A stretch of DNA of 64,000 nucleotides from Halorubrum sp. 48-1-W. Lineage in GTDB: Archaea > Halobacteriota > Halobacteria > Halobacteriales > Haloferacaceae. Where the stretch lies: contig NZ_QMIM01000023.1 of assembly GCF_003287355.1 (NCBI RefSeq), forward strand, positions 1-64,000, in the 5' to 3' direction. Each line of letters begins with the position of its first letter. Within the stretch, counting starts at the first letter, position 1. Under the pieces are notes generated by a model that saw only the letters and a program-made list of their open reading frames with translations, was not told the origin of the DNA and made no database searches. The position numbers and the translations under genes are program-made. Shown here piece after piece: positions 42,709 through 64,000 of this stretch.

Positions 42709-43512
42709 TCACTCCTCCGTCGTCGACTTCCCCGTCTTCGCTTCTCCCGTCGCCTCGTCGTATATCGAGAGGGCGCGCTCGTTCCGTTCCAGCAGGTAAC
42801 TGGTGTCCTTCCCGAGGATCTGGAAGTCGAACCCCTGCTCGACCCGCTCGGGTGCGTCGTCCGGGTCGACGGTGAGCGTCCCGACGGGGATCCCGGCGGC
42901 GTGTGCCGCGTCGACGATGCGGTCCATCGCCTCGAGGAACCGCTCGTTCTCCCACTGTCCGAACACGTCCAGCGCGCCGGAGAGGTCCGCGGGGCCGGCG
43001 AACAGCGCGTCTATGCCGTCCACGTCGGCTATCTCCTCGACGTTCTCGAGACCCTCCACCGTCTCGATCTGGGCGATCGTCACGAACGTCTCCCCCGCGT
43101 TCTCGACGTACGACCGGAAGTCGGCCCCGTAGTCGGACGCGCGCCCGGACGCGATCCCCCGTTTCCCCTCGGGCGGGTATCGAAGGGACTCCACCAGCGA
43201 CTCGGCCTGCTCGGCGGTGTCGATCATCGGCACCATCACGCCCGAGACCCCGACGTCGAGGACGCGTTTGAGGTACACCGGGTCGTTCCAGGGGACGCGG
43301 ATCACGGTTCCGCTCTCGCCGGGGGCCGCCTCGACGGCCCGGTGCATGTCCTCGACCGTCTCGAGGGTCGTCGTCGTGTGTTCGGTGTCGATCAGGACGA
43401 AGTCGAACGCGTTCGCCGCGCTCACCTCCGCGACGGTCGGGCTCCCGATCGAGACCCACGTCGCCGAGAGGAACGACTGCTCTTCGAACGCCGTCTTCAG
43501 GTTCTGGCTCAT
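42709..43512 (-). CDS. HpcH/HpaI-family class II aldolase
   Basis: A 267-residue TIM-barrel aldolase of the HpcH/HpaI (2-keto-3-deoxy-sugar-acid / 2,4-dihydroxyhept-2-ene-dioate aldolase) family. Visible: F-V-L-I-D-T-E-H (metal and base region), V-I-R-V-P-W-N-D (catalytic Arg), G-V-S-G-V-M-V-P-M-I and L-F-A-G-P-A-D-L-S-G (Asp metal ligand). Such enzymes cleave 2-keto-3-deoxy acids to pyruvate and an aldehyde. It opens the catabolic island with enolase-type dehydratases that would make such substrates. The gap 43513-43802 upstream holds TATA-like sequences near 43650 and little else. Confidence 0.87.
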   Translation of the reverse strand: MSQNLKTAFEEQSFLSATWVSIGSPTVAEVSAANAFDFVLIDTEHTTTTLETVEDMHRAVEAAPGESGTVIRVPWNDPVYLKRVLDVGVSGVMVPMIDTAEQAESLVESLRYPPEGKRGIASGRASDYGADFRSYVENAGETFVTIAQIETVEGLENVEEIADVDGIDALFAGPADLSGALDVFGQWENERFLEAMDRIVDAAHAAGIPVGTLTVDPDDAPERVEQGFDFQILGKDTSYLLERNERALSIYDEATGEAKTGKSTTEE

Positions 43513-43802
43513 CTGTCCACCACCGAACGGACGTCGGTCGGCTCCCGGAGGGATCCTCCGAGTGGTCTCCGTGGCGAAACCGGGCCGGCGTGGATCCGTG
43601 AGATCGCTTTCTGTGTGTACATCGCTTCAGTACCGGATCCGCCGAAACGCGTATATATCTTTGTGGTCGTCGGATCGGATCTGCTCTCCCTCCACACGGA
43701 TCGCTTTCCCTCCGTGTGGACCGGTCGGCGGAGGGCGGTCGACCCTCCATCTCGCGGGGATCGACACGAACGTTTATGATACGGAAGGGAATAACTCGAG
43801 GT

Positions 43803-44039
43803 ATGGGAACGGACGCAAGCGGCGATACGGCGAGTCCCTCCGAGGAGGATCCGGGTGGGATCGCGGGGGCGTTGGCTCGAACGAGCGAGAGGATCCGGGA
43901 ACTGACCGACGCGGTGAAACCGGAGGACCCGGACCGCGTCGGACGGGTCGTGAAGTTCCTTCTCAGCGTGCTCTTCACCGCGATGTTCGTCTACTGGATC
44001 CTCGCGTACCAGTTCGACGTCGTCTGGTTCGAGTTCTGA
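43803..44039 (+). CDS. Small single-helix membrane protein
   Basis: A 78-residue protein: a polar N-terminus of about 45 residues, including the helix ARTSERIRELTDAV, and one transmembrane helix (about 50-70, FLLSVLFTAMFVYWILAY) near the C-terminus. No family recognised. TATA-like GTTTATGAT (43772-43780) is about 27 nt before the ATG. It lies 130 bp upstream of the TAXI binding protein on the same strand and might be an accessory part of that transporter, but TAXI-type systems do not require one. Confidence 0.6.
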   Translation: MGTDASGDTASPSEEDPGGIAGALARTSERIRELTDAVKPEDPDRVGRVVKFLLSVLFTAMFVYWILAYQFDVVWFEF

Positions 44040-44134
44040 GCAGGTCGGCGGGCGACGCCGGGACCGGTACGGAGGTGGTCTCGGAAACCGCCCGAACGGA
44101 GTACGAGGAATTCACATAACAGGGGTTCCCACAT

Positions 44135-44144
44135 CTTTATTATA
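44135..44144 (+). promoter_or_regulatory. TATA box of the TAXI binding-protein gene
   Basis: CTTTATTATA, centred about 29 nt before ATG 44169. The in-frame ATG at 44157 is only 17 nt away and would lie upstream of the predicted transcript start, so 44169 is the better start. Confidence 0.6.
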
Positions 44145-44168
44145 CCCCGAACGATAATGATAGATGGG

Positions 44169-45326: not shown

Positions 45327-45342
45327 CGCGACCGTACGATAG

Positions 45343-45368
45343 CCGTTTTTTCGAGACGATTTTTCACG
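45343..45368 (+). terminator. T-rich terminator after the TAXI gene
   Basis: Two runs of T (45346-45351 and 45361-45365) begin 19 bp after the stop codon, the usual archaeal form of terminator without a strong hairpin. Confidence 0.5.
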
Positions 45369-45639
45369 ACGCCGTTCGAGGGTAGCGACGCGCTCACACT
45401 GTCGATCCGAGTGAACGGTCGTCAATACCGGACGGACGGTCGAGACACGTCTCCGGCGAGATGCGATTCGGTCGCTTCACGGAACGAGACCGTGGAAGCC
45501 GACGAGGCCGGTTGCGAGTACCTGACTCGGGCGAGCGTCGCGGGTCCGCGTGAGGATCGTGGCGGTCGTCGCGGATTGACCTCGTGATGAACGACCCAAC
45601 GGCTCTGTTGGAATCCTCAGCAAGTGTGACGCTTTGACT

Positions 45640-45872
45640 TGCTGTGGTCAGTACAGCCGAAGGAGCGAGCGATCCAGTGTGGTGGCGCGCCGGTGAGCGG
45701 GTGCGATAGCACCCGCGAACCGCCCGCGAGGGAGTCGGCCGGTCGGAGCGAAGCGGAGGCCGGTCGACGAGGCTGGGGAGGTGTGAGGTGCGATGCTGTG
45801 TGGGGCGGGGTGGGATTCAAAGCCCCAGTCATCTCCCCCGCAACGAGGCGTCCTCGATCATCCGATCTATAC
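45640..45872 (+). repeat. Dispersed hairpin element (copy 3, shortened)
   Basis: Plus-strand copy of the element, about 230 bp. It has the 5' box GGTCAGTACAGCCGAAGGAG, hairpin 1 with an 8-bp stem (45697-45704 with 45709-45716), a weaker second hairpin (45736-45740 with 45758-45762), the GAGGCTGGGGAGG core and the 3' end TCCTCGATCA. The middle part and one of the two 31-bp direct repeats are missing. It fills the gap between the convergent TAXI and TRAP permease genes; the remainder (45369-45639) shows nothing recognisable. Confidence 0.75.
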
Positions 45873-45973: not shown

Positions 45974-47971
45974 TCAGAACCGGCGAGCGAGGACGGCCGG
46001 GAGCGTCGAGAGCGCCATCCCCCTGACCGCCATAACCTGCCAGGTGAAGAGCACCGCCGCGATGACGAAGCTCCCGAACCGGATGTACTCGTTCGGGGCC
46101 GCCATGATCACGACCCCGAGGACGACGAACACGAGCCTGATCCCGTAGTTGGCGGCCCGGAGGGAGAGCGCCTTCCGGTGGTAGTTCAGCCCGTGTACTA
46201 TCGCCGCCGCGCCGAGCAGGAGCAGGACCGACGAGGCGATCTTGATCGCCGAGAGCCCGCCGACGATTATCTCCGGGTTGTAGATGAACGTGAACGGGAG
46301 GATGAAAAGCGGCGCGGCGATCTTGACCGATTCGATCGCGGTCCGCCAGAAGTTGGACTGGGCGATCCCGGTGGTCACGACCACGGCGATCGCGATCGGC
46401 GGGGTGATCCCCGACAGGATGGCCGCGTAGAACACGAAGAAGTGAACGGGCAGCCGGGCCAGCTCGAAGCCCTCGATCAGCGCCGGCGCGACGAGCAACG
46501 CCACGATGGTGTAGGCGGCGACGGTCGGCATCCCCATCCCGAGGATGATGCAGATCAGCATCGCCAAGAGTAGCGCGAAGATCAACACGCCGCCGGACAG
46601 CTCGATCAGCGCCAGCGCGAGCTTGCCCGGCACCCCGGTCGTCACCAGGATGTCGACGATCCCGTTTATCGCCGAGACGATGACCGCGATGGGGGCGAAC
46701 ATCATCGCGCCGTAGCGCATCCCCTCGAGCGTCTGTGGGATGCCGACGAGGTACGACTCGTCGCTGAACCCGAGCAGGCGCTCGAAGACCGGGAAGACGA
46801 TCCCGGTACACACCATCGCGATGGAGGTGTACAGCGCCGCGGTCATCACGGTCCACTGGGCGATCCCGAGCAGGTAGATGAGGACGGCGAACGGGATCAG
46901 GAGCTTGACCGTCTCGAGCGCGAACGCGGGGAGCGACTTCCGCTCGTCGATGCCGGCGTCCGCGCTACTCGTGTCGACCCCGCTACTGATGTTCTGGTTG
47001 AGCGCCGCGTAGTGGACCGCGATCGCGACGGAGATGTAGAACACGAGCGCCGGAACGATGCCGGCGACGACGACCTGGATGTACGTGATCCCGAGGATCG
47101 ACGCCATGATGAACGCCGCCGCGCCCATCACGGGCGGCATGATCTGCCCGCCCGAGGAGGCGACCGCCTCGATCCCGCCCGCGGTGGAGGGTTTCATCCC
47201 CGCCTTCTTCATCAGAGGGATCGTCACGGAGCCGGTCATCGCCGCGTTGGCGACCTGCGCGCCGTTGATCGACCCGATCGCGAGGCTCGCCACGACCGCC
47301 GACTGGGCGATCCCGGAACGGACGTACTCGGAGACCCGGAACGCGATGCGCATCACGTAATCGAAGGCCCCGTAGCCGTTCAACAGTCCCGCGTACAGGA
47401 GGAACAGTGCCACCCACGCAGCGACGATCCCGCTTATCGACCCGAAGAAGCCGTTGAAGTCCGTCACGAACACGACGAGGATGCGGGTGAGCGAGAGGCC
47501 GCCGTGGCCGATGATCCCTGGGAGGGAGGCGCCGAGCCAGGCGTAGAGCGCGCCCCCGCCGATGACCGCCAGGAACGCCATCCCGAACGCGCGGTAGATG
47601 AGGTAGAACATCGCGAACGTGAACAACAGCGACAACACGTACTCGTGATGGAACGCGATCCCGGTCCGCTGGAACAGGAGTTCCTCGAAGTTGAGTATCA
47701 GGTACACCGCGGTCGTGGAGGTCGACAGGAGCACGATCCCCAGGAGGTAGAGGTCGAGGTAGTCGCGGTCCTCGATGGAATCGATCGACTGCTCGATGAC
47801 GTACATTCCGAACGCGAGCCCGAACAGCCCGACGGTGTACAGCGCCCGCGGCATCCGTTGCGTGTAGGCGTAGTATATCGCCAGCCCCCAGAGCACGAGC
47901 GAGAGCACCGTCAGGAGCTTTTCGACGGCGACTGTCGGCATGAAAGAGGAACCGGACCTGTTTTCGGCCAT
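45974..47971 (-). CDS. TRAP transporter fused permease (4TM-12TM), TAXI type
   Basis: A 665-residue membrane protein combining the small DctQ-like and large DctM-like parts in one chain, as is usual in TAXI systems. Conserved DctM features are GSINGAQVANAAMTGSVTIP, GGIEAVASSGGQIMPPVMGAAAFIM and LGMGMPTVAAYTIVAL. About sixteen hydrophobic helices are visible. It moves the acid delivered by the TAXI binding protein using the sodium gradient (family knowledge). ATG 47971 is chosen because TATA-like ACGTTTATC (48000-48008, minus strand) lies about 28 nt before it; ATG 47995 is only 5 nt from that box and thus unlikely. Confidence 0.9.
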   Translation of the reverse strand: MAENRSGSSFMPTVAVEKLLTVLSLVLWGLAIYYAYTQRMPRALYTVGLFGLAFGMYVIEQSIDSIEDRDYLDLYLLGIVLLSTSTTAVYLILNFEELLFQRTGIAFHHEYVLSLLFTFAMFYLIYRAFGMAFLAVIGGGALYAWLGASLPGIIGHGGLSLTRILVVFVTDFNGFFGSISGIVAAWVALFLLYAGLLNGYGAFDYVMRIAFRVSEYVRSGIAQSAVVASLAIGSINGAQVANAAMTGSVTIPLMKKAGMKPSTAGGIEAVASSGGQIMPPVMGAAAFIMASILGITYIQVVVAGIVPALVFYISVAIAVHYAALNQNISSGVDTSSADAGIDERKSLPAFALETVKLLIPFAVLIYLLGIAQWTVMTAALYTSIAMVCTGIVFPVFERLLGFSDESYLVGIPQTLEGMRYGAMMFAPIAVIVSAINGIVDILVTTGVPGKLALALIELSGGVLIFALLLAMLICIILGMGMPTVAAYTIVALLVAPALIEGFELARLPVHFFVFYAAILSGITPPIAIAVVVTTGIAQSNFWRTAIESVKIAAPLFILPFTFIYNPEIIVGGLSAIKIASSVLLLLGAAAIVHGLNYHRKALSLRAANYGIRLVFVVLGVVIMAAPNEYIRFGSFVIAAVLFTWQVMAVRGMALSTLPAVLARRF

Positions 47972-48108: not shown

Positions 48109-49197
48109 ATGTCGGACGACACCCGAACGGACGAGGTCGACGCTGACGACCACGGAGCGATCGAACGGGCGGGATCCGAGCGGGCCGACCCCGCGCGGAT
48201 CGAACGGATCGCGGTCGTCGGCGCGGGCACGATGGGTCACGGGATCGCGGTGGCGCTGGCCGGCGACGGCCGGTCCGTGACGCTCTACGACGTCGACGAG
48301 GACGCGCTGGAGGCGGCGCGCGAGGCGATCGCGGACGCGGTCGCGACGCTCGCCGAACACGAGGGACACGAACTCGAGGACGCCGAGCGGGTGTTGGGGT
48401 CGATCGCGTACGACTCGACGCTCTCGACCGCGGTCGCCGACGCCGACCTCGTGATCGAGGCCGTCCCGGAGGACGAGTCGATAAAGCTGGACGTCCTCGG
48501 CCGGATCGAACGCGAGGCCCCGTCTCGCGCGGTCGTCGCGACCAACACGTCGTCGTTCTCGATCACACTGCTCGCCGACGCGCTGGACCGTCCCGAGCGG
48601 TTCCTCGGGACCCACTGGTTCCACCCGCCACACATCGTCCCGGTCGTCGAGATCGTCCGCGGGGAGGCGACCGCCGACGGGCCGGTTCGGGCCGTCCGGA
48701 CGCTCCTCGAGGACGCGGGCAAGACCCCGGTCGTCGTCGAGAAGGACGTCCCGGGGTTCATCGGCAACCGCATTCAGTCGGCGATGGCGCGCGAGGCGTG
48801 GGCCCTCCTCGACGAGGGCGTCGCGAGCGCGGAGGACATCGACGCGGCCGTCAAGGGGACGTTCGGGTTCCGCCTGCCCGCCCTCGGCGTCTTCGAGAAG
48901 GGGGACCACTCCGGGCTCGACATCCACGCGAAGGTCCTCGACGAGCTGCTCGGGGAGATCAACCGGGACACGTCGCCTCCAGCCGTCCTGACGGACCTGG
49001 TCGAGGAGGGCCGGTACGGCGTCAAGACCGGTGAGGGCGTCTACGACTGGTCGGAGGTCGATATTCCGACGGCGACCGAGGACCGCGACCGACAGCTCCT
49101 CTCGTTGCTCTCGGTGTACGAGGACCGCGACCGGCCGGCGTCGCGGGCCGGACCGGACCGTGCTGCGAAGGACGACTCGGCGGACCGGGACGAGTGA
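48109..49197 (+). CDS. 3-hydroxyacyl-CoA dehydrogenase family protein (362 aa)
   Basis: An NAD-dependent dehydrogenase of the 3HCDH family. The Rossmann motif G-A-G-T-M-G lies at residues 38-43 after a 35-residue acidic extension. The catalytic His is in T-H-W-F-H-P-P and the acidic partner in V-V-E-I-V-R. The C-terminal domain (G-F-I-G-N-R-I-Q) is complete. Family members oxidise 3-hydroxyacyl-CoA, but L-gulonate and L-carnitine dehydrogenases share the fold, so a free hydroxyacid substrate is possible here. TATA-like GGTTATCC (about 48078-48085) is 28 nt upstream. It is divergent from the TRAP permease gene. Confidence 0.85.
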   Translation: MSDDTRTDEVDADDHGAIERAGSERADPARIERIAVVGAGTMGHGIAVALAGDGRSVTLYDVDEDALEAAREAIADAVATLAEHEGHELEDAERVLGSIAYDSTLSTAVADADLVIEAVPEDESIKLDVLGRIEREAPSRAVVATNTSSFSITLLADALDRPERFLGTHWFHPPHIVPVVEIVRGEATADGPVRAVRTLLEDAGKTPVVVEKDVPGFIGNRIQSAMAREAWALLDEGVASAEDIDAAVKGTFGFRLPALGVFEKGDHSGLDIHAKVLDELLGEINRDTSPPAVLTDLVEEGRYGVKTGEGVYDWSEVDIPTATEDRDRQLLSLLSVYEDRDRPASRAGPDRAAKDDSADRDE

Positions 49198-49246: not shown

Positions 49247-50026
49247 TTAGTAGGTCACCTTCCCGGCGCTGACGTTCAGGCTCTGGCCGGTGACCCGGTC
49301 CGCGGCCGTCGAACAGAGGTACGCGACGGTTTCGGCGACGTCCTCCGGCTGGACGAACTCGTTCCGCGGGCTCTTCGCCCGCTTCTCGTCGGCGACCGTC
49401 TCGGCGGACAGCCCCCGCGCCTCCGCCTCGTGTTCGATCACGCGGTCGATCCGGGGGCCGGCGACCGAGCCCGGACAGACCGCGTTCGCGTTGACGTCGT
49501 GTGGCCCGCCCTCGACGGCGAGCGTCCGCGTGAGCCCCAACAGGCCGCTCTTGGAGGCGGTGTACGGGCTCCGCTGTGGGACCGGTCGCTTCCCCGACGC
49601 CGACGAGATGTTGACGATGCGCCCGTACCCCCGTTCCTTCATTTTCCCCATCAGCTCCCGCGACAGGAGGAACGCCCCGCGGAGGTTGACCCCGAGCGTG
49701 GCGTCCCACTCCTCTACGGTCACGTCCTCGACGTCCTTCGTCGGGCCCGCGATGCCCGCGTTGTTGACCAACACGTCGATCGCGTCGAACTCCGCCTCGG
49801 CGGCCGTGACGGCGTCCCGCACGCTCGCCTCGTCGCTCACGTCCGTGTGAACCGACAGCGTCCGGACGCCGTGCGCTTCGAGCTCGGCCTCCGTCTCCGC
49901 CATGCCGTCGTCGTCGATGTCGGCGACGACGACGTCGAGCCCCCGCGACGCGAGCTTCGTACAGATCGCTCGCCCGATCCCCCGACCGCCGCCCGTCACC
50001 AGTGCCGTGTCTCCGTTGATCTCCAT
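49247..50026 (-). CDS. Short-chain dehydrogenase/reductase (SDR)
   Basis: A 259-residue classical SDR. Cofactor motif T-G-G-G-R-G-I-G near residues 11-18; D in V-A-D-I-D-D suggests NAD(H) preference. N-N-A-G structural motif, catalytic Ser in N-I-S-S-A-S-G and Y-T-A-S-K (Tyr/Lys). It is similar to 3-oxoacyl-ACP or sugar-alcohol dehydrogenases; the island suggests an alcohol or hydroxyacid substrate. ATG 50026 has a TATA-like AACTATACC (50051-50059, minus strand) 28 nt upstream. The gene is divergent from the D-2-hydroxyacid dehydrogenase gene, with the two TATA boxes only about 20 bp apart. Confidence 0.87.
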   Translation of the reverse strand: MEINGDTALVTGGGRGIGRAICTKLASRGLDVVVADIDDDGMAETEAELEAHGVRTLSVHTDVSDEASVRDAVTAAEAEFDAIDVLVNNAGIAGPTKDVEDVTVEEWDATLGVNLRGAFLLSRELMGKMKERGYGRIVNISSASGKRPVPQRSPYTASKSGLLGLTRTLAVEGGPHDVNANAVCPGSVAGPRIDRVIEHEAEARGLSAETVADEKRAKSPRNEFVQPEDVAETVAYLCSTAADRVTGQSLNVSAGKVTY

Positions 50027-50106: not shown

Positions 50107-51054
50107 ATGACCACCGTTGTCGTTCGACACGACCTACCGATCGACGAGGCGCTGGAGGGGACGCGTGACGGGCTCACGGTCCGCACTGCCCACGACACCG
50201 AGGGGACCAAGGAAGCACTGGCCGACGCCGACGCGCTGGTGATCAACCCGGCGAGCTGGGACGACGTCCTCCTCGAGGCCCTCGAGGAGGGCGACTGGGT
50301 CCAGGCGACGAGCACCGGCTACGCCGCGTTCCCCGTCGAGGCGTTCCGCGAGCGCGGGATCACGTTCACGAACGCGACCGGCAACTACGGGTCGCCCGTC
50401 GCCGACCACGTGTTCGCGCTCGCGTTGGGCCTCGCGCGGGGGCTCCCGACGTTCCTCGACGAACAGCGCGAACGGAACTGGGACCGGACGAAGGGCGGCG
50501 AGCTGATCGACCTCGACGGCCGGACGATGACCGTGGTCGGGCTGGGCGACATCGGCGAGTCGGTCGCCCGCCGCGCGCTGGGGTTCGGCATGGACGTGTA
50601 CGGCACGAAGCGGACGCCCGCCGAGTACGACGGCGTGCTCCCGGACAACCGCGTCCTCGAACCCGACGCGCTCGACCGGGTGATCGGCGAGACGGAGGTC
50701 CTCGCGCTCACCGTCCCGCTCACGCCGGAGACCCGGCACCTCGTCGACCGCTCGACGTTCGAGACGCTCCCCGACTCGGCGTTCCTGATCAACGTCGCGC
50801 GCGGCCCGGTCGTCGACCAGGAGGCGCTGATCGAGGCGCTGGAGACGGGGTCGATCGCCGGCGCGGGTCTCGACGTCTTCGACCCGGAACCGCTTCCCGA
50901 GTCGTCGCCGCTCTGGGAGATCGACAACGCTATACTCACGCCGCACGTCGGCGGGCGGTCGCGCGATTTCGTCGACCGGTTCGTCGACCTCTTCCTCCAC
51001 AACTTCGACCGGCGACGCGACGGCGACGGCGAGTTGCGAAACCGGATCGCCTGA
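50107..51054 (+). CDS. D-2-hydroxyacid dehydrogenase (NAD-dependent)
   Basis: A 315-residue enzyme of the glyoxylate/D-3-phosphoglycerate dehydrogenase family. The nucleotide motif V-G-L-G-D-I-G lies near residue 143. The catalytic trio is visible: Arg in N-V-A-R-G-P-V-V-D, Glu in the D-P-E-P-L-P region and His in L-T-P-H-V-G-G. Reduced 2-oxoacids or oxidised D-2-hydroxyacids are the expected substrates. It may feed the same hydroxyacid pool as the LarA-like racemase next door. The promoter is at 50075-50083. Confidence 0.87.
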   Translation: MTTVVVRHDLPIDEALEGTRDGLTVRTAHDTEGTKEALADADALVINPASWDDVLLEALEEGDWVQATSTGYAAFPVEAFRERGITFTNATGNYGSPVADHVFALALGLARGLPTFLDEQRERNWDRTKGGELIDLDGRTMTVVGLGDIGESVARRALGFGMDVYGTKRTPAEYDGVLPDNRVLEPDALDRVIGETEVLALTVPLTPETRHLVDRSTFETLPDSAFLINVARGPVVDQEALIEALETGSIAGAGLDVFDPEPLPESSPLWEIDNAILTPHVGGRSRDFVDRFVDLFLHNFDRRRDGDGELRNRIA

Positions 51055-55944: not shown

Positions 55945-57177
55945 ATGTACGAGGACTTTGCCACCAAGCTGGCGACGACGATGTGGGGCGATTACGATAG
56001 GACCCCCGAACGCGACACGGAGTCGCCCGAGATAACCGACATCGACACGGTCGTCGTCGACGGGAACTTCCCGTGGACGATCGTGACGATCGAGACCGAC
56101 ACCGGCGTGACGGGGATCGGCGAGGCGTACCCCTCGCCCGGCGTCCACGAGATCATCACCGACTACCTCCGGCCGGTGCTGGTCGGCGAGAACCCGCTCG
56201 ACGTCGAGCGGCTCTACCACCTGATGCGCGAGAGCCTCTCGGGCAGGGGGTCCCAGCAGGGGGTCGCGACGATCGCGATAAGCGGCGTCGAACTCGCGCT
56301 GTGGGACACCGCGGGGAAGGCGCTCGACCAGCCCGTCTACCAGCTACTCGGCGGGAAGATGCGCGACGAGGTGCGGATCTACGCCGACTGTCACGCCGGC
56401 GAGTCGATGATCGACGCCGCGATCGAGGGACAGCGTCGGGAGACGTACCGGCCGGAGGCGTACGCCGAGGAAGCCCGCGACGCCGTCGACGAGGGGTTCG
56501 ACCTCATCAAGTTCGACCTCGACGTCCCGTCCGGACACGAGATCGGGACGAAGTCCCGCCACCTCACCGGCCCCGAGGTCGAACACAAGCGACGGCTGGT
56601 CGCCGCCGTCGCGGAGGAGGTCGGCGACGAGGCGGAGTTCGCGTTCGACCTCCACTGGAACTTCAGCCGCGAGTCGGCCAAGCGCGTCTGTGACGCGGTA
56701 GAGGGGTACGACCCCGTCTGGATCGAGGACCCCCTCCCGCCGGAGAACACCGAGGCGATGGCGAACTTCGCTGCGACGGTCGACGTGCCGGTCCTGACCG
56801 GCGAGAACCGCTACGGCCGCCACGGCTTTCGGGACCTCCTCGAGTCGGGCGCGGTCGACTTCGTCGCCCCCGACACCCCGAAGACGGGCGGCATCGCGGA
56901 GACGAAGAAGATCGGCGACCTCGCGGACACCTACTACTGTGCGCTCGCGCCCCACAACATCGGGAGCCCGGTGGCGACGATGGCGGGCGTCCACGTCGGC
57001 GCGACCGTCCCGAACTTCCTCGCGTTGGAGTTCCACGCCCGCGACGTCCCGTGGTGGGAGGACATGGTCGACCGCGCCGAGCCGCTGATCCAGGACGGCC
57101 GGATCCGCGTGCCCGACGCCCCCGGCCTCGGCATCGAACTCGACTGGGACGTCGTCGAGGAGCACCGCAAGCGCTGA
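55945..57177 (+). CDS. Enolase-superfamily sugar-acid dehydratase (gluconate/galactonate dehydratase-like), paralogue 2
   Basis: A 410-residue enolase-superfamily protein closest to haloarchaeal and galactonate/gluconate-type dehydratases. Pattern: K189-F-D191 on strand 2, metal ligands D235 (with H237), E261 (W-I-E-D-P) and E287 (T-G-E-N), H337 on strand 7 (A-P-H-N-I-G) and E362 on strand 8. His at D-x-H and H337 fit acid/base dehydration of an aldonate to a 2-keto-3-deoxy acid. ATG 55945 is favoured (MYEDFATK); the TATA-like box at 55897-55906 gives a leader of about 15 nt. Confidence 0.86.
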   Translation: MYEDFATKLATTMWGDYDRTPERDTESPEITDIDTVVVDGNFPWTIVTIETDTGVTGIGEAYPSPGVHEIITDYLRPVLVGENPLDVERLYHLMRESLSGRGSQQGVATIAISGVELALWDTAGKALDQPVYQLLGGKMRDEVRIYADCHAGESMIDAAIEGQRRETYRPEAYAEEARDAVDEGFDLIKFDLDVPSGHEIGTKSRHLTGPEVEHKRRLVAAVAEEVGDEAEFAFDLHWNFSRESAKRVCDAVEGYDPVWIEDPLPPENTEAMANFAATVDVPVLTGENRYGRHGFRDLLESGAVDFVAPDTPKTGGIAETKKIGDLADTYYCALAPHNIGSPVATMAGVHVGATVPNFLALEFHARDVPWWEDMVDRAEPLIQDGRIRVPDAPGLGIELDWDVVEEHRKR

Positions 57178-57299: not shown

Positions 57300-58433
57300 T
57301 CAGACGTCCGGGACCCCGTCGCGCCGGAGCGCGGCGGCGATCTGGTTCTTCTGTATCTCGTCCGTTCCGGCGGCGATGCGGCGCCCCCGCGCGAGCCGGT
57401 GGAGGTACTCCAGCGGGTGACCCTGCTGGTAGCCGTTCGCGCCGTGGACCTGGAGCGACTCGCTGACGACCGTCTCGACCATCTCGCTGGCGTACAGCTT
57501 CGCGACGGCCGTCTCGAGCCGGTCGGGCGTCCGCCCCGCGTCGATAGCCGACTGGCCGGCCGAGTAGGTGAGCGCCCGGGAGGCCTGGAGCAGTTTCGTC
57601 GCGTCCGCGAGCTTCCACTCGATCCCCTGGAACTCGCCGATCGGCTGGTCGAACTGGACGCGGTCCTCCGAGTACTCCACCGCCTTCTCGAGGGCGTTGC
57701 GGGCGAACGCGTTCGCCAGCGCTGAGCTCCCGAGGCGCTCCCAGTTGAGCGCTTTCAGCTGTTGTTTGAACCCGTCGGCCCCGCGGGTGAGGACGTTCTC
57801 CTCCGGGACGACGACGTCCTCGATGTAGAAGTGCGTCTGCTCGTGGCCCGCCATGTTGGTGAAGTGCTGTTGTACCTCGACGCCGTCCGAATCGAGGTCG
57901 AGGACGACGGTGCCGAGCCCCTCCTCGAAGTGCGTCCAGACGACGGCCGCGTCCGACTCCCGGACCCGGGAGACCCACGTCTTCTCCCCGTTCATCACCA
58001 GCTCGTCGCCCTCCTCGTGGACGGTCGTGTTCATCGATTTCACGTCCGAGCCGGCCTCGGGCTCGGAGATCCCGATCGCGATCGCGCTCTCGCCGGCGGT
58101 CACGGGCTCGAGATACCGCTCCTTGACCGCCTCGGTCCCGAACATCTCGATCGCCCGTGGGCCGACCATCTGTTGTTCGTAGAGGAACTGCGCCGTGTCC
58201 GGACACACCGCGCCGACGACCTCGATGGAGAGGATCGCCTCGAGCTCCGAGAGGCCGCCGCCGCCGTACTCCTCGTCGATGTTGATCCCGAGGAAGCCGC
58301 GGTCGGCCAGCAGCTCGACGTTCCGCCAGGGCGTCTCGCCGTCCCACTCGAAGGCGTCGTCCGCGAACTCCGTCTCCGCAAGCTCCGAGAGCGAGTCGAC
58401 GATCATTCGCTGTTCCGCAGAGAGCGAAAGCAT
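57300..58433 (-). CDS. Acyl-CoA dehydrogenase family protein
   Basis: A 377-residue flavoprotein of the ACAD family. Visible: the FAD-binding I-G-I-S-E-P-E-A-G-S-D, W-V-S-R-V and Q-V-H-G-A-N-G-Y, and the C-terminal helix bundle. The common catalytic-base motif I-Y-E-G-T appears as I-A-A-G-T, with Ala at the Glu position, so the base may sit elsewhere (as in isovaleryl-CoA-type enzymes) or activity is altered. Family length 380 fits. TATA-like TTATTTGACG (about 58457-58464, minus strand) is 27 nt before the ATG. It follows the crotonase gene on the same strand with its own promoter. Confidence 0.85.
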   Translation of the reverse strand: MLSLSAEQRMIVDSLSELAETEFADDAFEWDGETPWRNVELLADRGFLGINIDEEYGGGGLSELEAILSIEVVGAVCPDTAQFLYEQQMVGPRAIEMFGTEAVKERYLEPVTAGESAIAIGISEPEAGSDVKSMNTTVHEEGDELVMNGEKTWVSRVRESDAAVVWTHFEEGLGTVVLDLDSDGVEVQQHFTNMAGHEQTHFYIEDVVVPEENVLTRGADGFKQQLKALNWERLGSSALANAFARNALEKAVEYSEDRVQFDQPIGEFQGIEWKLADATKLLQASRALTYSAGQSAIDAGRTPDRLETAVAKLYASEMVETVVSESLQVHGANGYQQGHPLEYLHRLARGRRIAAGTDEIQKNQIAAALRRDGVPDV

Positions 58434-58507: not shown

Positions 58508-59290
58508 TCACTCGGTCGGACGGTCGTAGTCGGGGTCGCGTCGCTCGCGAAACGCCGCGACGGCCTCCTCGTGTTCGGGGTCGGTGACGCACTCCCACTG
58601 GTACGCGATCGCCGACTCGCAGTGGTCCGCGAACGAGCCCTGCTCGGACAGAAGCGCCTTCGTCCGCCGGACCGCCAGCCGTGGCTTGTCCCGGATCTCC
58701 TCGGCGATCGAGTGCGCCTCCGCGAGCGGGTCCGCGACGACCTCGGCGACGAGCCCGAGGTCGGCGGCGCGCTCGGCGTCGACGTCCCTGCCGGTCAGGA
58801 GGAGTTCCCGGGCGGGCCCCTCGCCGATCAGCCGCGGGAGGAGCCACGCGCCGCCGTCGCCCGGAACCAGCCCCACGCTGACGAACCCCTCGCTGAACAG
58901 CGCGTCCGGCCCGGCCGTCCGGACGTCGCAGGCGAGCGCGAAGTCACAGCCGGCACCGACCGCCGGCCCGCCCACCGCGGCGATCGTCGGCGTCGGGTTC
59001 GTCCGCAGCTTCTCGACGACCGCCTGAACCGACGAGAGGAACTCGCCGTAGGCAGTCTCGCCCATCCCGGACCAGTCGGGCATCTCGCCGACGTCGGCGC
59101 CGGCACAGAACCCGCCCTCCGAACCCGTCAGGACGATCGCGTACACGTCGTCGTCGGCGTCCGCGCGGGCGAGGACCTCGTTCAGTTCGGCGACGGTGGC
59201 CTCCCGGAAGGCGTTCCGGACCGCCGGCCGGTCGATCGTCACGGTGGCGATCCCGCCGTCGACGTCGTAGCGCACGTCCTCGCCCGTCAT
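58508..59290 (-). CDS. Enoyl-CoA hydratase/isomerase (crotonase) family protein
   Basis: A 260-residue crotonase. The oxyanion-hole segments are G-F-C-A-G-A-D-V and A-V-G-G-P-A-V-G-A-G-C-D. The second Glu of classical hydratases is present (G-E-G-P-A-R-E-L-L-L-T-G), but the first appears replaced by a Phe/Val-type residue in F-S-E-G-F-V-S-V-G. It may therefore be an isomerase or an unusual hydratase. Its ATG overlaps the stop of the upstream enolase-superfamily gene (ATGA), so the two are coupled. The acyl-CoA dehydrogenase follows 74 bp downstream. Confidence 0.84.
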   Translation of the reverse strand: MTGEDVRYDVDGGIATVTIDRPAVRNAFREATVAELNEVLARADADDDVYAIVLTGSEGGFCAGADVGEMPDWSGMGETAYGEFLSSVQAVVEKLRTNPTPTIAAVGGPAVGAGCDFALACDVRTAGPDALFSEGFVSVGLVPGDGGAWLLPRLIGEGPARELLLTGRDVDAERAADLGLVAEVVADPLAEAHSIAEEIRDKPRLAVRRTKALLSEQGSFADHCESAIAYQWECVTDPEHEEAVAAFRERRDPDYDRPTE

Positions 59291-60453
59291 CGGCCGATGA
59301 CCGTCCGGTCGACGAGTCGGTCGTTCACGAACTCCCAGTCGATCTCCACGCCGAGGCCCGGGCCGTCGGGGACGGCGATCGTTCCCTCCGAGGTCAGCCG
59401 TTCGGGCGACTCGAGGAACCCCTGCTGGTTCATCCAGTCGACGCCCTGCGGGTGAACGAGGGAGTGTTCGAAGTAGTTCGAGTTGCGGATCGCGCTCATA
59501 CAGTGGAGGGTCGCCGGGCCGCCGATGTGGAGCTCGACGTCGAGCCCGAACGCCTCCGCGACGTTCGCGATCTTCATCGCGCCGGTGATCCCGCCGTCCT
59601 GGTGGACGTCCGCCCGGACCAGCTCGACCGCCTCGGCTGTCATGTGGTCCGCCCGTCCGAACGGGCCGGTTCGGACGTGTTCGAGCCCGAGCATGGGCGT
59701 GTCGAGCTTCCGCGTCAGGTTCTTGCTCGCGTTGATGCTCTGTCCGGTGTCCGCCATCGGGTCCTCGTACCAGTAGAAACCGAGCTCGTCGAGCTGTTCG
59801 CCGACCCGTAGCGCCTCGCGATAGGTCCGATAGCCGCTCGCCGGGTCGAGCATGAGGTCCATCTCGTCGCCGACGCGGTCCGCGACCGCGCGGCAGATGG
59901 CGACGTCCGTCTCGACGTCGCCCTCCGGGTAGCCGTGGATCTTGAACCCGGGGTAGCCGCGGGCGAGACACTCCTCGGCGAAGTCGGCGTACGCCTCGGG
60001 CGAGTTCAGCCCGTCCGGTGCGGAGTCCATGAAGAACGTCGAGGCGTACGCGGGCAGCTCCGTCCGCCACCCGCCGAGCAGCTTCGAGACGCTCTCCCCG
60101 TAGTGTCGCCCGGCCAGGTCCCACAGCGCGACGTCGATCGGCCCGAGGCCGAAGTGGTCCGTGTGACGGAAGGTCCGCCAGACGTCCTGCCAGATCGACT
60201 CGCGTTCGAGCGGATCCCGGCCGATGAGCAGGTTCTCGGCGGCGATCTCGACGTGCGTACGTATCAGCTCGCCGTAGGTGATGCTCCGGTAGTGTCCCTC
60301 CGTCCCGTCGGCGGTTCGGACGGTGAGGATCAGCCCCGTCGGTTCGAGCGTGTTCTCCGGGTCGTACACCTGGTGGACCTGGTTGGCGCCCGCGGTACCG
60401 ACCGATTCCAGCTCGTACGTGAACTCGGTGAGTTCGACCTCGCTGATTCGCAT
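59287..60453 (-). CDS. Enolase-superfamily enzyme (mandelate racemase/muconate lactonising-like), paralogue 3
   Basis: A 388-residue enolase-superfamily protein. Pattern: K171-I-H173 on strand 2, metal ligands D203 (L-M-L-D), E230 (W-Y-E-D-P) and E258 (G-L-E-H), and His at H309 (E-L-H-I-G). The K-x-H signature differs from the K-x-R and K-x-D forms of its two paralogues. ATG 60453 (MRISEVELTEF) is the conserved start; a TATA-like box (ATTTATAA, about 60474-60483) is about 28 nt upstream. It overlaps the crotonase gene by 4 bp and is divergent from the RraA-type gene. Confidence 0.85.
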   Translation of the reverse strand: MRISEVELTEFTYELESVGTAGANQVHQVYDPENTLEPTGLILTVRTADGTEGHYRSITYGELIRTHVEIAAENLLIGRDPLERESIWQDVWRTFRHTDHFGLGPIDVALWDLAGRHYGESVSKLLGGWRTELPAYASTFFMDSAPDGLNSPEAYADFAEECLARGYPGFKIHGYPEGDVETDVAICRAVADRVGDEMDLMLDPASGYRTYREALRVGEQLDELGFYWYEDPMADTGQSINASKNLTRKLDTPMLGLEHVRTGPFGRADHMTAEAVELVRADVHQDGGITGAMKIANVAEAFGLDVELHIGGPATLHCMSAIRNSNYFEHSLVHPQGVDWMNQQGFLESPERLTSEGTIAVPDGPGLGVEIDWEFVNDRLVDRTVIGR

Positions 60454-60550: not shown

Positions 60551-61198
60551 ATGTCCCACACGCCAGACCGGCTCGTTCAGCTGTACGGGAACTTCACCGC
60601 GACGATCGTCTCGGACGCGCTCGACGAACACGGGATAGACGGGGTGATAACGGGGCTCGACCCCGCACATCCCGACCACGCGGCCGTCGGGCGGGCCCGG
60701 CCTGTCGCGTTCGAGCCCGCCCCCGAGGACATCGACCGGACGAACTTCCCGTTCGACCTGTTCGCCGAGTTCACGGCCGGCGACGTGCTCGTTCTCGACG
60801 GGATCTCCGCGGAGACGTCCCATTGGGGCGAACTCGCGTGCCGCCTCGCGGGGAACGCCGGGGTTCGCGGAACCGTGATCGACGGCGGGTATCGGGACTA
60901 CAACGGGATCCGAGACGGCGAGTACCCGGTCTTCGGTGCGGGGACGACGCCGCGGTCCGGGCAACCCCGCGTCCGGATCGCGTCGATCGGCGAACCGGTG
61001 ACGGTCGGCCGTGTGGAGATCGCGCGGAACGACGTCGTCGTCGCCGACGCCACCGGGATCGCGGTCGTTCCCGAGGACGCGGCGCCCGCGGTCGCCGAAA
61101 CGGCGAGGGAGATCCTGGGAACGGAGCTCGTGTTGGACCGCCGCGTCGCGAACGGCGCGGACGTGGAGACGCTCATGGCGGAGTACGACGGGTTCTGA
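60551..61198 (+). CDS. RraA-family protein (4-hydroxy-4-methyl-2-oxoglutarate aldolase/oxaloacetate decarboxylase-like)
   Basis: A 215-residue protein with the RraA fold. The motif G112-G-Y-R115-D116 and the D-V-L-V-L-D strand are those of HMG aldolase-type enzymes, which split or decarboxylate 4-hydroxy-4-methyl-2-oxoglutarate or oxaloacetate. Others in this family bind RNase E; archaea lack a standard partner, so catalysis is more likely. The start at ATG 60551 has a TATA box at 60521-60530. In the island it could release pyruvate from a branched or dicarboxylic 2-oxoacid (inference). Confidence 0.85.
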   Translation: MSHTPDRLVQLYGNFTATIVSDALDEHGIDGVITGLDPAHPDHAAVGRARPVAFEPAPEDIDRTNFPFDLFAEFTAGDVLVLDGISAETSHWGELACRLAGNAGVRGTVIDGGYRDYNGIRDGEYPVFGAGTTPRSGQPRVRIASIGEPVTVGRVEIARNDVVVADATGIAVVPEDAAPAVAETAREILGTELVLDRRVANGADVETLMAEYDGF

Positions 61199-61281
61199 CC
61201 GCAGATGTCCAGGGAGATCCGATCCGCCCGGACCCCCGATCCCGGACGAAAGCTTATGCGGGTGCCGCGACAGCACCGCTC

Positions 61282-62286
61282 ATGGGTGAGAAAGCCGACG
61301 CCGACGCGGAGCCGTACGCTGACATCGTCTCGGGGGCCCCCGACAACTGGGGCGTCTGGGGCGACGACGACGAGCTGGGTGCTCTGAACTACCTCGACGC
61401 CGACGCCGTACTGCGCGGCGTCGGGGCCGTCTCCTCGGGGGAGACGTTCACGCTCGGTGCGCCGATCGGGAACCCGGACGGCGACCCGATGTGGCCGACC
61501 CGGGCCGACGCCGACCACCACATGCTCCGGGACAAGGGCCACTTCGAGGCGGGGAAGGTCACCCGGGAGCCGTACGGCGGCTGGGAGAACTCCGACGACT
61601 TGGTGTACCTGTACAACCACGGGACGACCCACGTCGACGGGCTCGCACACGTCTGGTACGGCGACGAACTGTACAACGGGTTCGACGCGGCCACGACGAA
61701 GGGCGGGATCGAACGCTGCGGGATCGAACACGTCGCCGACCGGGGCGTCGTCGGTCGGGGCGTGTTGCTCGACGTCGCTCGCCACCGGGACGTCGAGTAT
61801 CTCGAGGCGGGCGAACGGGTCACGCTGGAGGAACTGCTGGCGTGTGCGTCGGAGCAGGGCGTGGAGGTCCGCGAAGGCGACGTCCTCCTGATCCGAACCG
61901 GGGCGATGGACCTCTTCTACCGGGAGGGCGCCGACGCGTTCTACGAGGAGTTCGAGACGACCCACGGCGGGGAGCCCGCGCTCGACGAGGCGGGGATCAC
62001 CTACACGGAGGCGCTCGTCGAGTGGTTCGACGACCGGGAGATACCGATGCTCGCGACGGACACCGTGACGGCCGAACAGACGATCTCCGAGACGACCGGC
62101 ACGCGCCTGCCGCTTCACCCGATCCTGTTACGGGACCTCGGCGTGCTCATAAGCGAGATGAACCGGCTCGGCGACCTCGCCGCCGCCTGCGCCGATGACG
62201 GGCAGTACGAGTTCCTGTACGTGGCCGCGCCGTTACACGTCGTGGGCGGGAGCGGCGGGCCGGTGAACCCGGTCGCCATCAAGTGA
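61282..62286 (+). CDS. Cyclase/kynurenine-formamidase-like metal hydrolase
   Basis: A 334-residue protein of the putative cyclase (kynurenine formamidase-like) family. The metal signature H-x-G-T-x-H-x-D-x3-H appears as H113-G-T-T-H117-V-D119-G-L-A-H123. An N-terminal 60 residues and a long tail exceed the minimal family (about 210). Members hydrolyse formamides or lactones, or isomerise ring compounds. A TATA-like AGCTTATG (61251-61258) is 27 nt before the ATG. It lies 84 bp after the RraA-type gene on the same strand. Confidence 0.83.
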   Translation: MGEKADADAEPYADIVSGAPDNWGVWGDDDELGALNYLDADAVLRGVGAVSSGETFTLGAPIGNPDGDPMWPTRADADHHMLRDKGHFEAGKVTREPYGGWENSDDLVYLYNHGTTHVDGLAHVWYGDELYNGFDAATTKGGIERCGIEHVADRGVVGRGVLLDVARHRDVEYLEAGERVTLEELLACASEQGVEVREGDVLLIRTGAMDLFYREGADAFYEEFETTHGGEPALDEAGITYTEALVEWFDDREIPMLATDTVTAEQTISETTGTRLPLHPILLRDLGVLISEMNRLGDLAAACADDGQYEFLYVAAPLHVVGGSGGPVNPVAIK

Positions 62287-62351
62287 GCGTCGCTGTCGAG
62301 TGAGCGTCGCTGTCGAGCGAGCGTCGCTGTCGAGTGAGCGTCGTCGTCGTC
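62284..62351. repeat. 17-bp tandem repeat, four copies
   Basis: TGAGCGTCGCTGTCGAG repeats from 62284 (its first TGA is the stop of the cyclase gene) at 62301, 62318 and 62335, with the last copy changed. It fills the gap before the convergent dehydrogenase gene (ends 62355). Confidence 0.8.
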
Positions 62352-62354
62352 TCG

Positions 62355-63293
62355 CTACTCCTCGAACGAGTCGAACACCTGCCCCAGTACGGCGAGCCGC
62401 CGGTCCCGTCGCCGGAGGACCTCGTCGTCCGGCTCGTCGTACGTCAGGAACCCCTCCCCCGACTCGATCCCCGTCCGCCCCGACGCGAGGAGCTCGTCGA
62501 AGGTGTCCTGGGCCGCCTCGTCGTTACACAGGTGCGGGTAGAGGTGTTCGGCGACGGTTCGGAACTGGTCGACGCCGGCGATGTCCATCGTCTCGAACGG
62601 GCCGATGACCGCGGTTCGCCGGGCGTAGCCGTCGCGGACCGCGGCGTTGATGTCCTCCACGGAGGCGACGTCCTCCTCTACGAGGTGGACGCACTCGCGG
62701 ATCACCGCGTTCTGGATCCGGTTCCAGACGAACCCGGGAACGTCCCGCTCCACCGTGATCGGTCGGCGGTCGACGTCCTCGAGGAACGCGCGCGTCCGGT
62801 CCATCGTCCGGTCCGTCGTCCGCTCGCCCCGGACGACCTCGACCGGCTCCAGCAGGTACGGCGGGAACCACCAGTGACAGCCGACGACCCGCTCGGCGGC
62901 GTCGGGGACCGCCTCCGCGATCTCCGTTATCGGGATCCCCGACGTGTTCGACGCGAGGACCGCGTCCGACGGCGCCGCCCCCGCGATCGCCGAGAACACC
63001 TCGCGCTTGATCGCCAGGTCCTCCGGAACCGTCTCGAGCACGAGGTCCGCGTCGGCGACCCCCGCGGAGAGGTCCGTCGTCGTCGAGACGGCCTCGACGA
63101 CCGACTCCGGCGACCGCTCGGTGAGCCCTCCCTCGCGGAGTTCGGCGACCGCGTTCCCCATCCGTTCTCCCGCCCGCTCGAGGTTCCCCTCGCGGTGGTC
63201 GACGAGCGTGACGTCCTGGCCGTGAAGCGTGAAGTGGACGCCGAACCCCTGTCCCATGTTCCCGGCACCGACGACCGTGACGTTCCGTGTCAT
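62355..63293 (-). CDS. 3-hydroxyacyl-CoA dehydrogenase family protein (312 aa)
   Basis: A compact 3HCDH-family enzyme. G-A-G-N-M-G at residues 8-13 binds NAD; the catalytic His is in G-C-H-W-W-F-P-P and the paired Glu in P-V-E-V-V-R. The C-terminal helical domain carries N-R-I-Q-N-A-V. Length matches the L-gulonate/L-carnitine 3-dehydrogenase subgroup as well as standard HAD. It shares only moderate sequence with the 48.1-kb paralogue. A TATA-like TTATTTG (63318-63325, minus strand) is 27 nt before the ATG. It is divergent from the thiamine-diphosphate enzyme gene. Confidence 0.85.
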   Translation of the reverse strand: MTRNVTVVGAGNMGQGFGVHFTLHGQDVTLVDHREGNLERAGERMGNAVAELREGGLTERSPESVVEAVSTTTDLSAGVADADLVLETVPEDLAIKREVFSAIAGAAPSDAVLASNTSGIPITEIAEAVPDAAERVVGCHWWFPPYLLEPVEVVRGERTTDRTMDRTRAFLEDVDRRPITVERDVPGFVWNRIQNAVIRECVHLVEEDVASVEDINAAVRDGYARRTAVIGPFETMDIAGVDQFRTVAEHLYPHLCNDEAAQDTFDELLASGRTGIESGEGFLTYDEPDDEVLRRRDRRLAVLGQVFDSFEE

Positions 63294-63400
63294 ACGCCAC
63301 CCAGGCGGGTGGTCGGCAAATAAGGTTCGGTAGGACGCGTTTCCGACCGCAGCGAGTGGCGCCGACCCGGTCGGCGGGTCGCGCCCACGGGTACCAAAAC

Positions 63401-63410
63401 GTTTTATTAC
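63401..63410 (+). promoter_or_regulatory. TATA box of the thiamine-diphosphate enzyme gene
   Basis: GTTTTATTAC, centred about 29 nt before ATG 63435, fits a leaderless start. Confidence 0.6.
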
Positions 63411-63434
63411 AGTTCCGCCGTCTACCTAGCAGTA

Positions 63435-64000
63435 ATGAAAAACAGCGACGCGATCATCGACTGTCTCACCGCGAACGGGATCGACACGGTGTTCGGAATC
63501 CCGGGCAAACAGACGCTGCCGTTGAACAAGAGCATCAGCGAGCGGGACGACATCGACTTCGTGATGGCCCGACACGAGACGAACGTGTCCCACGAGGCGT
63601 GGGGGTACGCCGAGTCGAGCGGGGGGATGGCGGCGACGGTCGTGATCCCGGGGCCCGGCGACATGAACGCGATGAACGGGCTGAAGAACGCGCTCAACGA
63701 CTGTACACCTCTCCTGCACATGGCCGTCGAGACGGAACCCGAGATCCGGGGCGGCGACGGGATCCACGAAACGCCGCCGGACACGTACGACAACGTCGTC
63801 AAGGAGAACGTCACGGTCGAGACGCCCCAGAGCACGGTCGCCGAGCTGGAACGCGCCATCTCGATCGCGAAGACGGCCCCGAAGGGGCCGGTCCGCGTCG
63901 GCATCCCCAAGAACTTCGTCCCGATGGAGATCGAGCCGGCTGTCACGGGCGACATCGACGTCCCCGACCCGTGGGACGCGCCCGAGGCCGAGGTCCGGGA
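63435..64000 (+). CDS. Thiamine-diphosphate-dependent enzyme (acetolactate synthase-like), 5' part
   Basis: The gene runs off the window end; 188 codons are visible. They form the pyrimidine-binding domain of acetolactate synthase/benzoylformate decarboxylase-type enzymes: M-K-N-S-D-A-I-I-D-C-L start, G-I-P-G, and the catalytic Glu48 in A-R-H-E-T-N that activates the cofactor. The next segment G-G-M-A-A-T-V-V-I-P-G-P-G-D is the family's phosphate/FAD-side loop. It may be a 2-oxoacid decarboxylase or carboligase for the products of the island rather than the biosynthetic acetolactate synthase. The remainder beyond 64000 was not seen. Confidence 0.85.
   Translation, partial: MKNSDAIIDCLTANGIDTVFGIPGKQTLPLNKSISERDDIDFVMARHETNVSHEAWGYAESSGGMAATVVIPGPGDMNAMNGLKNALNDCTPLLHMAVETEPEIRGGDGIHETPPDTYDNVVKENVTVETPQSTVAELERAISIAKTAPKGPVRVGIPKNFVPMEIEPAVTGDIDVPDPWDAPEAEVR

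Follow-up and report, generated by a model that had tools for sequence, protein, structure and literature searches.

A haloarchaeal gene island proposed to oxidize an acid sugar to 2-oxoglutarate, with a nickel-pincer isomerase of an unassayed group

Which kind of acid does a dense run of catabolic genes in a haloarchaeon serve, and by what ending would it be oxidized? The run in question lies in Halorubrum sp. 48-1-W (genome of 3.58 Mb), and the window, that is, the whole stretch analysed, comprises bases 1-64000 of the 78468-base contig NZ_QMIM01000023.1 (here C8). A first-pass annotation had proposed that 42709-64000 is an island for the catabolism of a hydroxy or sugar acid, working by uptake, epimerisation, dehydration and aldol cleavage. 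Our analysis leans modestly toward an island that takes up an acid sugar, an aldonate or an aldarate, and oxidizes it non-phosphorylatively to 2-oxoglutarate. Judged from gene content and neighbourhood, it would be a haloarchaeal acid-sugar unit to which a LarA-like nickel-pincer nucleotide (NPN) isomerase and TRAP uptake have been joined, along with further dehydratases and dehydrogenases and an accessory module of five genes, and the ending most associated with it is the conversion of alpha-ketoglutarate semialdehyde (KGSA, also 2,5-dioxovalerate) to 2-oxoglutarate.

Genes were called by codon usage and assigned to families by NCBIfam and Pfam scans (Table 1). Every enzyme family named in the first-pass annotation was found at its place, including the KGSA-type aldehyde dehydrogenase at 37.4 kb, and the clustering it described exceeds chance, but its bounds were too narrow: the island covers about 31 kb, beginning with the KGSA dehydrogenase (37.4 kb) and ending near 69.1 kb of C8, beyond the window end. 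By comparison with relatives, the genes at 37380-42629 are part of it. On the other side, the gene of a thiamine diphosphate (ThDP)-dependent enzyme crosses position 64000 and is followed by genes for an enolase-superfamily protein, an IclR regulator, a DHDPS-family Schiff-base enzyme, a VOC protein and an SSS symporter. The four enolase-superfamily proteins are called MR_a, MR_b, MR_c and MR_d after their starts at 52624, 55945, 59287 and 65181.

The order-wide search covered 155 genomes with NPN, ThDP, MR_d, 3HCDH_b, TRAP permease, UxuA, MR_a and DHDPS queries; the genome of origin was searched but left out of the counts. Co-location meant a distance within 20 kb, among genomes with both genes, and was set against the number expected from random placement in 3.5 Mb (21 pairs were compared without DHDPS); because the genomes are related, these contrasts are not probabilities. 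DHDPS lay near UxuA in 14 of 16 genomes (0.47 expected), often at a spacing of about 1.1 kb, and near MR_a in 13 of 15 (0.32 expected), while UxuA and MR_a were together in 7 of 12 (0.25 expected). The ThDP gene accompanied UxuA in 8 of 13 genomes (0.24 expected) and MR_a in 7 of 10 (0.13 expected), and the TRAP permease accompanied UxuA in 5 of 6 (0.14 expected). NPN was found with MR_a in 7 of 12 (0.33 expected) and with TRAP in 7 of 13 (0.42 expected), with MR_d in 7 of 37 (1.23 expected) and with ThDP in only 4 of 32 (0.68 expected). These pairwise counts place DHDPS, UxuA and MR_a at the heart of the island, with ThDP, NPN and TRAP less tightly attached. The dehydrogenase 3HCDH_b is not core by the same test, lying within 20 kb of UxuA, MR_a and TRAP in 0 of 3, 0 of 4 and 0 of 5 genomes, respectively.

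The KGSA dehydrogenase was sought within the fetched stretches only, at an identity of at least 55%. Of the 20 places anchored on DHDPS, UxuA or MR_a, 10 had it, as against 3 of 65 controls (Fisher p = 1.1e-5), a comparison in which three places belong to a single genome and two more to another, and in which the merged stretches of genomes G076, G153 and G108 exceed the controls in length. The controls were 46 named NPN loci without DHDPS, UxuA and MR_a and 19 other stretches, 18 of them ThDP-anchored and one 3HCDH_b-anchored. Outside both groups stand six more named NPN loci, which do have DHDPS, UxuA or MR_a; one of them carries the dehydrogenase. Moreover, the dehydrogenase lies beside DHDPS in Halorubrum sp. 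JWXQ-INN 858, G076 and G153. This gene association favours a KGSA ending, with the DHDPS-family protein and the aldehyde dehydrogenase as its putative enzymes, over aldol cleavage by the HpcH/HpaI protein; the uptake, epimerisation and dehydration foreseen by the first-pass annotation stand as predicted functions, and its aldol step is the less well backed ending. The HpcH/HpaI aldolase, which is retained in JWXQ-INN 858, may act in parallel.

Individual relatives show how much of the island travels together. A contig protein scan with the NPN query returned 80 loci, for which the gene caller was retrained per locus and presence tables were taken from tblastn (L056, L064, L069, L073, L086, L089 and L135 were poorly called). 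The gene set is complete in Halobellus captivus, at 78-98% identity, with about 14 kb inserted between the KGSA dehydrogenase and the lactate/malate dehydrogenase-family (MDH) gene, which are neighbours in the window (G155:C2:104354-118421; L160, L161); the insert carries extra DHDPS (68%), IclR-like, enolase-superfamily and UxuA-like (56%) genes and four genes of about 285-380 amino acids that are ABC-transporter-like by layout only. In JWXQ-INN 858, 21 of the 27 compared genes form a single run at 61-90% identity, which spans positions 42979 to approximately 71000 of the contig. The six missing genes are those for MR_c, the crotonase, the acyl-CoA dehydrogenase, the RraA and cyclase proteins and the SSS symporter, and when they are removed 17 of 20 neighbour pairs are retained (orders were entered by hand; small open reading frames, the M20 hydrolase and the aminotransferase were excluded). 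The KGSA dehydrogenase, DHDPS and IclR genes are grouped together in that island and stand at opposite ends of the island on C8. G076 and G153, from the family to which the window belongs, carry DHDPS (47-49%), an Ldh2-type dehydrogenase, MR_a, UxuA, MR_b (80-84%) and ThDP (72-73%), followed by the KGSA dehydrogenase, another DHDPS (72-74%) and IclR. Salinadaptatus halalkaliphilus keeps DHDPS, IclR, ThDP, NPN and MR_c together, and a minimal version in G073, from another family, packs the TAXI binding protein, MR_d, ThDP, MR_b, an EamA-family transporter, UxuA, the TRAP permease, 2HADH, NPN and MR_a into about 15.5 kb. Thus homologues are not scattered across haloarchaea without co-occurrence, the outcome that the first-pass annotation had named as fatal to its proposal; they co-occur, as the JWXQ-INN 858 run and the 20-kb counts indicate, for a core only. 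Five of the listed genes are absent from the JWXQ-INN 858 island, and a single pathway for the whole list, as had been supposed, is not supported; by this comparison the acyl-CoA dehydrogenase, crotonase, MR_c, RraA and cyclase genes are accessory.

The enzymes at the heart of the island retain the residues that catalysis would require. The aldehyde dehydrogenase passes the equivalog cut-off of the haloarchaeal 2,5-dioxovalerate dehydrogenases, and in the DHDPS-family protein the Schiff-base K166 and Y142 are invariant in 12 sequences (the corresponding Lys and Tyr of KdgD are named in PMC5114784); its closest NCBIfam families are KdgD-type, although it scores under their cut-offs. The UxuA-like protein keeps its metal ligands, with H213, C253, H281, D323 and H324 invariant in 12 sequences, and the top five PDB fold matches of its model are mannonate dehydratases, whereas it falls under both NCBIfam cut-offs (TIGR00695, 79.2 against 199.55; NF003027, 123 against 191). 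All of the enolase-superfamily proteins have full metal ligands, and the different active-site signatures reported for the three within the window proved real and invariant in aligned relatives: KxR/DxH in MR_a (K178/R180, D207/H209, E240, E265 and H315; 9 sequences), KxD/DxH in MR_b (K189/D191, D235/H237, E261, E287 and H337; 18 sequences) and KxH in MR_c (K171/H173, D203, E230, E258 and H309; 13 sequences), the last shared by MR_d. In a PDB search the structure closest to MR_a is DauB (5olc), with further matches to 3ozm, 3h12 and Gci (4ggb). The catalytic base of Gci and DauB is Lys166 (PMC5698469), and in the alignment this position is taken in MR_a by Arg180, invariant in 9 sequences, so that the same chemistry cannot be assumed. 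The residue set of galactarolactone/anhydrogalactonate cycloisomerases is accordingly present only in part, its metal ligands and H315 being kept and its Lys base replaced. The nearest solved structures of MR_b (2qq6), MR_d (1rvk) and the DHDPS protein (3d0c/3e96) are listed under generic names only, and a substrate assignment from them was rejected.

The LarA-like protein belongs to NCBIfam group 22 of its superfamily. Its R79, H111, H177, K190 and H206 are invariant in 25 sequences and repeat the His-His (66) and Lys-His (16) spacings of the catalytic and cofactor set R75/H108/H174/K184/H200 of LarA (PMC11770544). PDB sequence searches with this protein gave no match, and all 18 PDB matches of its structure model (pLDDT 90.6) at E<=0.001 are of the LarA family (TM 0.40-0.52). 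A search covering LarC and LarE found homologues of both in the genome over cut-off (PF01969 and TIGR00268). Group 22 does not appear in the portion of the NPN assay table examined (PMC7583248), nor among the eight characterised NPN groups named in the portion of PMC11851776 consulted. The two residues after the second catalytic His, T178 and M179, fit no published LAR, GntE or HGR code at those positions, and the gluconate 2-epimerase (GntE) code of E, V, A and H is thus broken at its first two positions; a malate racemase is conceivable. The uptake system is of the TAXI-TRAP type by TIGR02123 and PF16868, with TIGR02122 under cut-off. In frame upstream of the TAXI protein are the motifs SRRRFLEG and then LAGC, and it is probably a lipoprotein exported by the twin-arginine (Tat) pathway. 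Behind its lipobox, 15-base repeats at 44249-44401 encode an Asp/Gly/Ser linker. NPN and TAXI genes also meet elsewhere: a second cluster in the same genome (C2:34000-53999, L120; 4548-14943) holds acyl-CoA dehydrogenase-like, two enolase-superfamily, NPN isomerase, cupin, FAH-family hydrolase, Usp and TAXI-TRAP genes, its arrangement is repeated in G107 and G110, and NPN-TAXI pairs occur in 7 genomes. At two other loci (L134 and L093), NPN genes adjoin D-threonate-kinase-like genes, which suggests tetronate use.

In the ThDP-dependent enzyme, R46, H47 and E48 are invariant in 34 sequences and the best matches are generic acetolactate-synthase-like proteins; Glu48, we presume, argues against a glyoxylate carboligase. 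Its homologues (57-65%) at L127, L128, L138/L139 and L149-L154 often lie a few genes from a CaiB-type CoA-transferase gene (K1), sometimes with TAXI-TRAP genes, a second, CoA-linked context for the family. Other catabolic assignments were considered and rejected: for sulfonate catabolism, the acyl-CoA dehydrogenase is nearest to a desulfinase and the ThDP enzyme scores on sulfoacetaldehyde acetyltransferase, all far under cut-off, and for hydroxyproline, carnitine and aromatic routes none of the equivalogs reached its cut-off.

From these observations on the genes present, their families and conserved catalytic residues, and on the conserved grouping of DHDPS, UxuA, MR_a, KGSA dehydrogenase and ThDP, we infer a substrate class, a set of reactions and their order. 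Uptake of the acid would fall to the Tat-exported lipoprotein of the TAXI type together with the fused TRAP permease, and the group 22 isomerase would invert C2, making both epimers usable. The UxuA-like protein, MR_a, MR_b and MR_d would then dehydrate different stereoisomers to a 2-keto-3-deoxy acid, which the DHDPS-family enzyme would convert into KGSA and the aldehyde dehydrogenase into 2-oxoglutarate. The SDR, 3HCDH and 2-hydroxyacid dehydrogenases might tune the oxidation state, IclR would regulate, and the HpcH/HpaI protein may be a side exit to pyruvate. A bolder version of this proposal, in which the island is an undescribed haloarchaeal route where the group 22 epimerase and the UxuA-like dehydratase feed a new DHDPS-subfamily dehydratase that forms KGSA, with a ThDP carboligase or decarboxylase step absent from known acid-sugar pathways, strikes us as doubtful.

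Several observations weigh against oxidation to 2-oxoglutarate. Half of the anchored places (10 of 20) lack the KGSA dehydrogenase; the Salinadaptatus genome has none at E<=1e-100, and G073 has neither it nor DHDPS in the 32 kb examined. The DHDPS protein scores 119.8 bits on the KdgD model TIGR03249, far under the cut-off of 373.95, and, as in its close relatives (9 of 12 sequences; the other 3 have G-N-T-G-E), reads A-N-I-S-E where the family has GxxGE, so that its reaction is putative. The scheme gives the ThDP enzyme no role, aligned orthologous upstream regions show TATA-like stretches and no common operator among the regions listed, and the genomes compared are homologous, not independent samples. 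Some of these points suit an aldol route, close to that of the first-pass annotation, in which the UxuA-like and enolase-superfamily proteins make acids of the 2-keto-3-deoxygluconate (KDG) type, the DHDPS protein is a KDG aldolase yielding pyruvate and glyceraldehyde, and the KGSA dehydrogenase serves another acid. The mannonate-dehydratase fold of the UxuA-like protein, the adjacency of DHDPS and UxuA, the want of a close KGSA dehydrogenase in half of the anchored places, in G073 and in Salinadaptatus, and the retention of HpcH in JWXQ-INN 858 would all fit. This route is nevertheless rather unlikely in our judgement, given the enrichment of the dehydrogenase at DHDPS places, its position beside DHDPS in three genomes and the KdgD-type affinities of the DHDPS protein, under cut-off as they are.

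A composite locus overlaps with oxidation to 2-oxoglutarate and does not exclude it: an acid-sugar core would share the locus with a dehydrogenase set and with a distinct module for acyl-CoA or ring-opening chemistry (MR_c, acyl-CoA dehydrogenase, crotonase, RraA and cyclase). We regard this as a serious possibility, if somewhat short of even. The five module genes are contiguous and all absent from JWXQ-INN 858, relatives of the acyl-CoA dehydrogenase (68%), crotonase (60%), ThDP enzyme (65%) and HpcH protein (52%) sit among CoA-transferase genes in G057, and 3HCDH_b keeps apart from UxuA, MR_a and TAXI/TRAP in the co-location counts; on the other hand, no CoA ligase or CoA-transferase is among the island genes scanned, which would leave such a module without an entry step, and Halobellus captivus retains all of the genes. 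A last alternative is that metabolic genes accumulated by chance in a variable region and form no pathway. It could appeal to the patchy presence of the island, as homologues of MR_a, UxuA and DHDPS are all missing, at the thresholds used, from the 8 other genomes of the genus in the sample. Yet in many families the genes lie together far more often than random placement predicts, and this, with the neighbour pairs retained in JWXQ-INN 858, makes it most improbable.

A mobile-element origin was considered as well and set aside: the only tRNA of the window is at 10494, flanking repeats were looked for and none was found, and no search was aimed at integrases. A search for palindromic words in the intergenic regions of the island gave GC-rich matches only, with no set clearly above background. 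To the left, at 33685-36588, are genes for an M20-type amidohydrolase and a class III aminotransferase, 95-96% identical in Halobellus captivus and not found in the JWXQ-INN 858 stretch examined.

Table 1. Genes of the island on contig C8 (the window ends at 64000); percentages are identities in the JWXQ-INN 858 island unless another genome is named.
Feature	Coordinates	Strand	Evidence
KGSA (2,5-dioxovalerate) dehydrogenase	37380..38834	-	NCBIfam NF052305 846.7 bits, cut-off 750
Lactate/malate dehydrogenase-family (MDH)	38998..39957	+	Pfam Ldh_1_N/Ldh_1_C; under NCBIfam cut-offs; 67%
MFS transporter	39951..41123	-	PF07690; 78%; 75% adjoining core in G153
Universal stress protein	41214..41645	-	PF00582; 66%
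Glutaredoxin/GST-like + AhpC/TSA peroxiredoxin fusion	41856..42629	+	Pfam; 69%
HpcH/HpaI-family aldolase	42709..43512	-	PF03328; best NCBIfam HpaI 183.7 bits < cut-off 368.8; 76%
TAXI-type TRAP solute-binding protein	44169 (approx. start)..45326	+	PF16868 54.8 bits > 27; TIGR02122 51.2 < 84.35
Fused TRAP membrane protein (permease)	45974..47941	-	TIGR02123 412.9 bits > 320.65
3HCDH-family dehydrogenase a	48109..49197	+	PF02737/PF00725; H169 and N220 invariant
SDR oxidoreductase	49247..50026	-	PF13561
D-2-hydroxyacid dehydrogenase (2HADH)	50107..51054	+	PF02826; NF041369 268.4 bits < cut-off 400
NPN isomerase, LarA superfamily group 22	51147..52508	-	NF052515 483.6 bits > cut-off 400
MR_a, enolase superfamily (core)	52624..53862	+	Conserved catalytic residues; PDB search
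UxuA (mannonate dehydratase)-like metalloenzyme (core)	54676..55746	-	PF03786 152 bits > 23.7
MR_b, enolase superfamily, galactonate-dehydratase-like signature	55945..57177	+	NF010624 223.2 bits < cut-off 311
Acyl-CoA dehydrogenase family (accessory)	57300..58433	-	Pfam; start shifted 27 bases up
Crotonase family (accessory)	58508..59290	-	PF00378
MR_c, enolase superfamily (accessory)	59287..60453	-	Conserved catalytic residues
RraA-family protein (accessory)	60551..61198	+	PF03737
Cyclase-family hydrolase (accessory)	61282..62286	+	PF04199 65.4 bits
3HCDH-family dehydrogenase b (3HCDH_b)	62355..63293	-	Pfam; 76%
ThDP-dependent enzyme	63435..65075 (window cuts at 64000)	+	PF02775/02776/00205
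MR_d, enolase superfamily	65181-66362		
IclR regulator	66601-67317		
DHDPS-family Schiff-base enzyme	67639-68577		
VOC protein	68702-69142		
SSS symporter	70326-71822		

If oxidation to 2-oxoglutarate is the correct reading, it would offer a role for an unassayed branch of nickel-pincer isomerases, define a recurrent haloarchaeal unit (IclR, KGSA dehydrogenase, DHDPS, UxuA-like and MR_a) that genome annotation leaves without a name, and add an acid-sugar route to organisms studied mostly for sugars and amino acids. The four enolase-superfamily proteins, with their defined signatures, would then offer a small substrate space. No description of the island was found in the literature searched, a weak negative since most subscription journals lay outside the search.

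The oxidative hexuronate/aldarate route (uronate dehydrogenase, Gci, KdgD and KGSA dehydrogenase) has in common with the island its enolase-superfamily, DHDPS-family and KGSA dehydrogenase steps, and MR_a has DauB as its nearest structure and matches Gci. In contrast, the island DHDPS protein is under the KdgD cut-off, an Arg replaces the Lys base of Gci and DauB, UxuA-like, NPN and ThDP enzymes are added, and no uronate dehydrogenase is among the genes scanned. Two dehydrations to KGSA followed by oxidation would be shared with the Haloferax volcanii xylose pathway, and the aldehyde dehydrogenase of the island falls among the haloarchaeal 2,5-dioxovalerate dehydrogenases. The second dehydration in the island would be the work of a DHDPS-family protein, whereas the Haloferax enzyme for this step belongs to another family; moreover, no xylose dehydrogenase was identified in the island, and an acid would be taken up by TRAP transport. 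In Haloferax volcanii, two dehydratase steps lead to 2-oxoglutarate semialdehyde, which is then oxidized to 2-oxoglutarate, and an E. coli-type glucuronate route (UxaC, UxuB and UxuA) has been proposed for H. utahensis and H. turkmenica (PMC3102087). The island has a UxuA-family dehydratase in common with the glucuronate route, but its protein is under the UxuA NCBIfam cut-offs, no glucuronate isomerase was seen in the island, and the ending is a KGSA dehydrogenase. With the LarA superfamily of racemases and epimerases (PMC7583248, PMC11770544) it shares the fold and the five catalytic or cofactor residues, and homologues of LarC and LarE are in the genome, while Thr178 and Met179 lie outside the LAR, GntE and HGR codes and group 22 is missing from the portion of the assay table examined. 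Set beside these systems, as far as the portions of the sources consulted describe them, the parts of the island are familiar, and their combination and the unassayed isomerase are new.

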